Positions 14,099 to 15,544 of a stretch of 37,651 nucleotides of DNA are shown here, piece after piece. The stretch is taken from the NCBI GenBank assembly GCA_023475565.1, contig JAMCVT010000025.1, positions 1 to 37,651 on the forward strand. The letters are read 5' to 3'. The stretch's first letter is position 1. Each line of letters begins with the position of its first letter. Both the position numbers and the translations under genes were made by a program. The stretch comes from Actinomycetota bacterium. Its GTDB lineage: Bacteria; Bacillota; Desulfotomaculia; Desulfotomaculales; Desulfocucumaceae. Below the pieces are notes generated by a model that had not been told where the DNA came from, searched no databases, and saw only the letters and a list, made by a program, of their open reading frames with translations.

Positions 14099-14122
14099 AA
14101 AAAAAACCGGTTTATAAACCGG
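14099..14122 (-). terminator. terminator closing the riboswitch/pseudo-receiver unit
   Basis: A perfect 16-base palindrome (CCGGTTTATAAACCGG, 14107-14122) is followed on the minus strand by eight T residues. It starts at the base next to the stop codon of the 58-codon ORF at 14123-14299. Confidence 0.85.
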
Positions 14123-14299
14123 CTAAATATTTTTGTATTTCTTTTGCGATATAGGGAGGGAGGTTTTCTTTTTATTTCCTGTTTTAACGTTTCCGCTATA
14201 CATGGCGCTGAAATACCATTTCATAAGCTCTCTCTTAAATAACTGGCTTAATCCTATCTTTTCTTCGGACTGGGTTCTGGCTCCTGTTTTTCCCGGCAA
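14123..14299 (-). CDS. candidate 58-residue basic small protein
   Basis: A TTG-started ORF (MPGKTGARTQSEEKIGLSQL ...) with GGAGAG seven bases upstream ends in TAG, abutting a strong terminator. The product is lysine-rich in its C-terminal half (GNKKKTS, SQKKYKNI) with an aromatic helix in the middle (LMKWYFSAMYSG). I recognise no family. It lies 87 bases downstream of the pseudo-receiver gene on the same strand with no terminator between, so it is probably on the same c-di-GMP-controlled transcript. Coding status rests on ribosome site and terminator placement only. Confidence 0.42.
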   Translation of the reverse strand: MPGKTGARTQSEEKIGLSQLFKRELMKWYFSAMYSGNVKTGNKKKTSLPISQKKYKNI

Positions 14300-14386: not shown

Positions 14387-14905
14387 TTATCCGGCCTTCC
14401 GGTCCCACTTCATGCGGCCGCCTTCCCTGACCGGCGCTTCCTGAGAGGGGTTCCAGCCCTTGCCGTTGCTGAATTCCAATTCTTTTCTCCGGTGGCTGGA
14501 CAGGTAATATCTCCTTATTTCACCGGGGGTCAGTATGAAGTAGCGGCTCAGCCTTTCTCCCTGCTGCAGGGGCTTTAATATTATGTCATCGGCACTGGCG
14601 CTGAAGCTCTGCAGAATATCCTCCCTGGTGATGGTGTTGGCATAGATAATTATAGGGCACTTGTGGATATTTTTCAGTGTTTTAACAAATTTCATTTTGT
14701 TTTGCTTGGCAAACCCAAGGGACATAAGTATAAAGCTGGGTCTTTTGTTTACCGTCATGGTCACTGCCTTTGATTCCTCATCAGCCTCAAAAATTTCGCA
14801 GTTCTTGCCAAGCAGAAGAATTCTCATGGTAGTCCGCATGAACAGGGAGTGATCTATGATAACTACTTTTTTATGGGGATTTACATTAATAGTTTTCCTG
14901 GACAT
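14387..14905 (-). CDS. receiver-like protein lacking the phospho-acceptor Asp
   Basis: The 172-residue protein has a CheY-like receiver fold at about residues 12-115 (KVVIIDHSLFMRTTMRILL, CPIIIYANT, DDIILKPL). The conserved lysine is kept (K111) and one acidic-pocket residue is kept (D18, with H19 beside it). The normal phospho-Asp position is Ser (S62 in FILMSLGF), so canonical phosphorylation is not expected. After the receiver comes a basic, probably flexible tail of about 50 residues, with no DNA-binding or output domain that I recognise. The ATG at 14905 is chosen over an upstream frame extension because GGGAGGTC lies just before it. A class I c-di-GMP riboswitch occupies the leader. Confidence 0.82.
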   Translation of the reverse strand: MSRKTINVNPHKKVVIIDHSLFMRTTMRILLLGKNCEIFEADEESKAVTMTVNKRPSFILMSLGFAKQNKMKFVKTLKNIHKCPIIIYANTITREDILQSFSASADDIILKPLQQGERLSRYFILTPGEIRRYYLSSHRRKELEFSNGKGWNPSQEAPVREGGRMKWDRKAG

Positions 14906-14911
14906 GGAAAT

Positions 14912-14937
14912 GACCTCCCTTATAGTATGGAAAGGCC
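14912..14937 (-). promoter_or_regulatory. Shine-Dalgarno sequestering hairpin (riboswitch expression platform)
   Basis: On the minus strand GGCCTTTC (14937-14930) can pair over eight positions, G-U pairs included, with GGGAGGTC (14919-14912), which is the ribosome site of the pseudo-receiver gene. A second hairpin (CTTGAC-GGTG-GTCAAG, 14960-14945) shares its first base with the closing stem of the aptamer. Ligand-dependent translation control is inferred. Confidence 0.6.
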
Positions 14938-14959
14938 ACTGGTACTTGACCACCGTCAA

Positions 14960-15032
14960 GGCAGCTGGCTGTCATAGGCTGGAAACCTTTAGACCCTCTA
15001 GCTTTGCGTCACTGCTTTTCAGCAGTTTTGCC
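14960..15032 (-). ncRNA. cyclic-di-GMP-I (GEMM-I) riboswitch aptamer
   Basis: Read on the minus strand, the aptamer opens with GGCAAAA. Next is a CTGCT-GAAA-AGCAG hairpin with the GNRA loop that docks into the aptamer's receptor. TGACGCAAAGCTA and GGGTCTAAAG follow, and ATGACAGCCAGCTGCC ends it. These are the conserved class I c-di-GMP elements in the right order and spacing. GGCA at the start and TGCC at the end close stem P1. It lies 55 bases before the pseudo-receiver start codon, in the sense orientation. Recognition is from the established GEMM-I consensus; no covariance search was run. Confidence 0.93.
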
Positions 15033-15142
15033 AAAGTATTATCTTAATTAATATTTTAAACCACACAGGCTCTGTGCAAATAGGCCTTAGTGTCGATATT
15101 TATAGGACTATAGACCCATTTATGCCTTTTATGACTAATGGG

Positions 15143-15424
15143 TTAAACATATGCTTCCTTTTCGTTGAAGCTTACCGGAATCCATCCCCCGTTGAGGGAC
15201 ATGTAGGCAGAACCGTTTATCACTATTATGTCCCCGGGCTTTAGGGGGTGCATGTGCTTGGTTAGATAATCCCGGGATATGGTGTTTAACTCCGTATATA
15301 CATTTTGAAGGCTGTTGGCTTTAACGGTTCCGGAAAGGAAATAATCACCCGGCAGGGGCTTTTTTGTCGAGCAGTGCTTTAAACCTGTGTATTTGTCCTT
15401 CACCCGGTAAAGTTTGGCTATCAT
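15143..15424 (-). CDS. hypothetical protein, possible YodL-like domain
   Basis: The 93-residue product starts MIAKLYRVKDKYTGLKHC and ends LKPGDIIVINGSAYMSLNGGWIPV. A short 'GD/DVI-v-ng-aYyv...gw' ending of this kind is reminiscent of the YodL-like domain, but I would not assign it on this alone. The ATG at 15424 is preferred over the upstream frame extension because GGGGTGAT precedes it. It stands alone on the minus strand, upstream of and in the same orientation as the riboswitch unit. No signal peptide or membrane segment is seen. Confidence 0.6.
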   Translation of the reverse strand: MIAKLYRVKDKYTGLKHCSTKKPLPGDYFLSGTVKANSLQNVYTELNTISRDYLTKHMHPLKPGDIIVINGSAYMSLNGGWIPVSFNEKEAYV

Positions 15425-15544
15425 AGAGATCACCCCGATTGTATACTTTACCATATATTTTAATGCGGCAGTATATATGTTTAATCAAACCAGGAGCTTA
15501 TTTTGCTGGGCAAATATACTCAAAGACAGCCGGGGAAGGGCTTT

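Follow-up and report, generated by a model that had tools for sequence, protein, structure and literature searches.

A probable translational c-di-GMP-I OFF switch upstream of a stand-alone aspartate-less receiver gene

The locus and its receiver family

The window, meaning the whole stretch of 37,651 nucleotides that was analysed, corresponds to contig 82 in the draft genome (2.72 Mb) of a poorly studied bacterium of the Peptococcaceae type. The only Rfam match above the gathering score in the window is a c-di-GMP-I aptamer, which lies upstream of a small receiver gene. The features of the locus are listed below, where SD denotes the Shine-Dalgarno sequence.

15053–15080, minus strand: promoter-like site, TTTGCA and TAAAAT separated by 16 nt (9/12 in a consensus scan)
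14957–15042, minus strand: c-di-GMP-I aptamer (RF01051), full length, 73.6 bits, E 9e-13
14992–14998, minus strand: GAGGGUC, SD-like; forms the 5′ side of helix P3 in the aptamer and is an alternative partner for the anti-SD strand
14945–14960, minus strand: linker hairpin CUUGAC-GGUG-GUCAAG, not kept across the wider family
14930–14939, minus strand: anti-SD strand GUGGCCUUUC
14910–14919, minus strand: SD arm GGGAGGUCAU, including the SD GGGAGG (14919–14914), 8 nt 5′ of the ATG
14387–14905, minus strand: coding region, with its stop codon, of a stand-alone aspartate-less receiver of 172 aa (PF00072, E 1.2e-10)
14123–14299, minus strand: 58-aa open reading frame (ORF), probably cotranscribed with the receiver gene
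14105–14124, minus strand: terminator-like hairpin with a T run, the probable end of the transcript

The predicted transcription start lies near 15046 in the consensus scan, and the promoter region can be aligned with those of the orthologues in genomes G002, G005 and G007. An upstream motif of the AGTCCTA type was rejected as a shared operator: with one mismatch allowed, the palindrome gave 3 sites per strand in its own genome, against 15 for the reversed control.

The 172-aa product carries a receiver domain (PF00072, E 1.2e-10), and its AlphaFold model shows a receiver fold with core pLDDT above 90, followed at the C-terminus by a single helix and a low-confidence tail. The fold matches of the model in the PDB were receivers. 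No second Pfam domain was found above the cut-off, so that the protein has no DNA-binding output domain of the kind found in the CmrT-like OmpR family. Serine replaces the phospho-acceptor aspartate (ILMSLGF), and only the first aspartate of the metal-binding acid pair is retained. An earlier note on this DNA had described the product as a signal receiver; the fold agrees with that description, and the loss of the phospho-acceptor and of one of the two metal-binding acids means that it cannot function as an ordinary phosphorylated receiver. The product is therefore a stand-alone aspartate-less receiver (ALR) without an output domain.

A search profile built from 12 members revealed 15 members of this receiver family in nine of the 113 genomes of the order, with scores of 94–197 bits; below them the profile scores drop to CheY-like proteins at 58 bits. 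The class-level search covered the same 113 genomes. In a sample of 398 genomes of the phylum, no protein from outside the order exceeded 59 bits, a score at which ordinary CheY-like proteins are found; this rules out a wider spread of the family in that sample. The acceptor position is serine or alanine in every member (15/15), and nine of the 15 genes have the riboswitch directly upstream. The scan of genome contigs gave a single relative, at 83% identity, and the nearest named relative found was Peptococcaceae bacterium BICA1-7. The orthologues in G005 and G007 have kept the promoter, while the aptamer is reduced to about its first 30 nt; the alignment of this stub scores 71 in G005 (shuffled maximum 37) and, more weakly, 55 in G007 (shuffled maximum 47). 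In G001, which belongs to the same genus, sdhA, sdhB, the 58-aa ORF and a zinc-ribbon-like gene follow one another without an intervening riboswitch or receiver, and the two are thus absent there as a unit. The distribution of the riboswitch requires three changes on the family tree, which is poorly resolved.

Several observations concern the surroundings of these genes. The 58-aa ORF, present in five of the 113 genomes, adjoins the receiver gene in G002, G005 and G007, and occupies the same locus in the receiver-less G001 (L186, 2660–2830, plus strand); a further stretch of L186 (4266–4423, plus strand) matches the TwoAYGGAY RNA at 41.7 bits, slightly under the gathering score of 43. A 103-aa protein at 15143–15454 on the minus strand of the window (GDIIVINGSAYMSLNGGWIPV) has no Pfam or NCBIfam match and resembles a small ORF downstream of the receiver gene in G003 (L039). 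Two distant, riboswitch-free family members (L045, G000:C159; L046, G002:C25) have a tuf (EF-Tu) gene directly downstream, and in G055 a purine riboswitch (L052, 1387–1488, minus strand; 96 bits) lies just 3′ of the receiver gene, before a gene resembling a purine permease. Function could not be read from the neighbours, which share no common theme: sdh genes at the window, G002 and G003, a chemoreceptor-like gene 3′ of the G051 member, and tuf 3′ of the two riboswitch-free paralogues.

The aptamer and the pairings of the leader

The RF01051 match covers model positions 1–87 of 87, and its 73.6 bits compare with a gathering score of 35. The earlier note had recognised the aptamer from its conserved pieces and had proposed the Rfam model as a check; that search confirms it, and the pieces lie on the minus strand as described: GGCAAAA from 15032, a GAAA-capped P2 hairpin at 15026–15011 (tetraloop at 15020–15017), GACGCAAAGC, GGTCTAA, and a closing strand whose GCTGCC ends at 14960. 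Positions 15032, 15005 and 14961, which we take to correspond to the ligand-contact positions of Vc2, retain the bases G15032, A15005 and C14961 in the Rfam alignment, equivalent to G20, A47 and C92 in Vc2 numbering. Judged by these identities, the contact bases are of the c-di-GMP type and not of the cGAMP type, and the window aptamer presumably binds c-di-GMP. The mapping to Vc2 numbering drew in part on PMC11218506 and PMC9262584.

Two other aptamers, at G003:C52 (L039, 3788–3876, minus strand) and G001:C36 (L145, 115–200, plus strand), carry A at the G20 equivalent, where G is usual in c-di-GMP-I; in Geobacter, such a change is associated with a preference for cGAMP. The G003:C52 copy is one of those belonging to the aspartate-less receiver family.

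The genome of the window contains five c-di-GMP-I riboswitches, along with 12 GGDEF and 7 PilZ matches, which makes it very likely that the host produces c-di-GMP. Other c-di-GMP-I riboswitches were noted during the survey. At L047 (G000:C45, 672–5135) one that belongs to the same genome is followed by a clear terminator and then by a gene for a very large, secreted YD-repeat (RHS-like) protein that extends past the stretch read. Several in the order, at L048 (G000:C40, again of the same genome), L151, L157, L159, L162 and L164, precede genes that resemble HD-GYP phosphodiesterases by eye, a possible feedback on c-di-GMP. A 132-nt example with a long P3 insert stands before a gene resembling a Y1-type (REP-associated) transposase at L049 (G000:C143, about 1190–1480).

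The flanks of the window aptamer (5′ CUUU, 3′ CUUG) do not allow the P1 helix to form. The linker hairpin postulated earlier exists and shares C14960 with the 3′ end of the aptamer; its supposed overlap with P1 is only nominal, given that P1 is unable to form. This hairpin (14960–14945) was ruled out as a part of the switch, as it is not conserved and the G051 leader is too short to contain it. The proposed ribosome-site trap fared better. The segment GGCCTTTC (14937–14930) is complementary to GGGAGGTC (14919–14912), as had been claimed, and the helix can be extended to 10 bp, four of them G-U (GTGGCCTTTC/GGGAGGTCAT). A terminator scan of the leader found no terminator-like site between the aptamer and the ATG; control of the gene at 14905 is therefore probably translational.

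The trap is present with compensatory changes in all nine relatives that bear the riboswitch: the anti-SD strand pairs with the SD in 9/9 leaders, and four of the eight pairs have changed on both sides. In total 87.5% of the cells are paired, compared with 50–64% for slid partners, a fraction biased upward by the hand alignment of the segments around the SD. The compensatory pair types (UA, CG and GC at one position) are the stronger point in favour of the hairpin.

A second complementarity links the anti-SD strand to the aptamer. In six of the nine leaders the anti-SD strand is exactly complementary, over 7 nt, to the aptamer strand GAGGGUC; among about 60 further c-di-GMP-I sites in the order (some listed twice) a single exact complement was found, in a different segment. 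Across the nine leaders this aptamer:anti-SD helix shows no covariation, being conserved and complementary only. In five leaders, which come from four taxonomic families, the anti-SD strand has GAC at its 5′ side (UGACCCUCCU). These bases find partners in the aptamer strand but none in the SD arm, an argument that selection acts on the aptamer:anti-SD helix. Shared ancestry alone could also have preserved it.

Folding, proposed mechanism and alternatives

The accessibility of the SD was calculated with an energy model of secondary structure, in which tertiary contacts, ligand and co-transcriptional folding do not enter. When the aptamer pairs were enforced, the unpaired fraction of the SD fell to at most 0.004 in eight of the nine leaders, the window included (0.004), and to 0.17 in G003. 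Enforcing the alternative helix left the SD 0.25–0.62 unpaired. Shuffled linkers closed the SD as fully in only 1–5% of cases in eight leaders (3.3% in the window), and in G003 closure was no better than with shuffled linkers. In seven leaders the alternative fold is predicted to be more stable than the secondary structure of the bare aptamer; in the window and G002:C24 copies it is 2–4 kcal/mol less stable than the aptamer. The alternative helix of the window is weak, with three G-U among its seven pairs, as it is in the 83%-identical orthologue.

Since the SD is predicted to be closed once the aptamer has folded, c-di-GMP would most likely turn translation off. As a model, this OFF direction is well supported for the family and no more than plausible for the window copy itself. 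Our computations support the aptamer, the SD hairpin, their coupling to the receiver family and the loss of the active site. From these we infer ligand binding, the OFF direction, the alternative pairing and control by dosage, and we consider it reasonably likely that the leader acts as a c-di-GMP-I OFF switch on the translation of a stand-alone aspartate-less receiver. At high c-di-GMP the aptamer would retain its P3 strand GAGGGUC, and the anti-SD strand (14939–14930) would be free to capture the SD arm (14919–14910), so that translation stops. At low c-di-GMP the anti-SD strand may instead take the SD-like GAGGGUC, which would open the aptamer, expose the SD and allow the receiver to be made. 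As the usual phosphorylation is impossible, the activity of the receiver would depend on its amount, that is, it would be controlled by dosage. A fuller proposal, which we regard as tentative, is that the P3 strand GAGGGUC serves as a decoy SD that c-di-GMP locks into the aptamer, and that, in several families of a single order, this leader has been retained alongside receivers incapable of phosphorylation, dosage taking the place of phosphorylation.

The opposite direction was also considered. In that case the hairpin would trap the SD by default, and c-di-GMP would release it by way of tertiary contacts or co-transcriptional folding that secondary-structure models miss. In its favour, the SD of the unconstrained window RNA is already closed (0.02 unpaired), which leaves a closing ligand little to do. 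Against it stand the further closure of the SD in every leader once the aptamer is enforced and the fact that the anti-SD strand has, as its conserved second partner, a strand of the aptamer that ligand binding would occupy; a translational ON switch is thus unlikely. The closed SD, predicted with and without the aptamer, would equally suit a window copy that no longer switches, the aptamer persisting while the SD stays closed or yields to other factors only. Loss of control does occur in the lineage, as two sister-genus orthologues have lost most of the aptamer and kept the gene. Two points speak against such decay. The aptamer has kept all key bases and reaches 73.6 bits, and the leader, taken from the aptamer through to the SD, hardly differs from that of the orthologue although the proteins are 83% identical, a pattern suggestive of selection along its full length. 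We judge a non-switching copy to be rather improbable.

Control by transcription termination or RNA decay, with an incidental SD hairpin, appears very unlikely. A terminator follows at least one further c-di-GMP-I switch of the genome, and Bc1 of B. thuringiensis combines transcriptional and translational control (PMC11218506); here, however, no terminator-like site lies between the aptamer and the ATG, and covarying, conserved complementarity is centred on the SD in 9/9 leaders.

Relation to known systems and significance

The closest mechanistic parallel is Vc2 of Vibrio cholerae, a translational OFF switch of the c-di-GMP-I class that acts by masking the SD (Inuzuka et al. 2018, as described in PMC9262584). 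Going by that description, the two share the aptamer class and a ligand-bound state that masks, or here is proposed to mask, the ribosome site. They differ in that Vc2 switches through P1, its key switching element (PMC9262584), whereas the present leader has no P1 and its proposed competitor is the P3 strand GAGGGUC; the target genes are not the same. Cd1 of Clostridioides difficile is a transcriptional OFF switch with a terminator before flagellar genes (PMC9262584). It has the same aptamer class, binds its ligand without NMR signs of P1, and can enter the ON state only by giving up its binding-competent fold (PMC9262584); unlike the window leader, in which no terminator was found, it acts through one. 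In the cmrRST system of C. difficile, a c-di-GMP riboswitch activates transcription, and CmrT is an OmpR-family protein with glutamate in place of aspartate (PMC12548384). An aspartate-less receiver protein under a c-di-GMP riboswitch is thus common to both systems (PMC12548384), while in the present case the residue is serine, the output domain is missing and the control is probably translational repression.

Aspartate-less receiver and pseudo-receiver domains, which have the receiver fold and no phosphorylation site, are known (PMC4395418, PMC12632262). The proteins described here form a stand-alone family, found in one order in our survey, with a riboswitch upstream of 9/15 members. The combination described here, a probable translational OFF switch and receivers without an output domain, is assembled from known parts, and our searches of the open literature gave no published report of it.

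A 2025 review noted that evidence on how active ALRs are neutralised is sparse and named regulated synthesis among the few possibilities (PMC12632262). In the present family, receivers that cannot be phosphorylated are coupled directly to a second-messenger riboswitch. Relatives without the aptamer, or without the whole riboswitch-receiver unit, provide natural controls, and the leaders offer a concrete and testable design of a translational c-di-GMP-I switch that would operate independently of P1.
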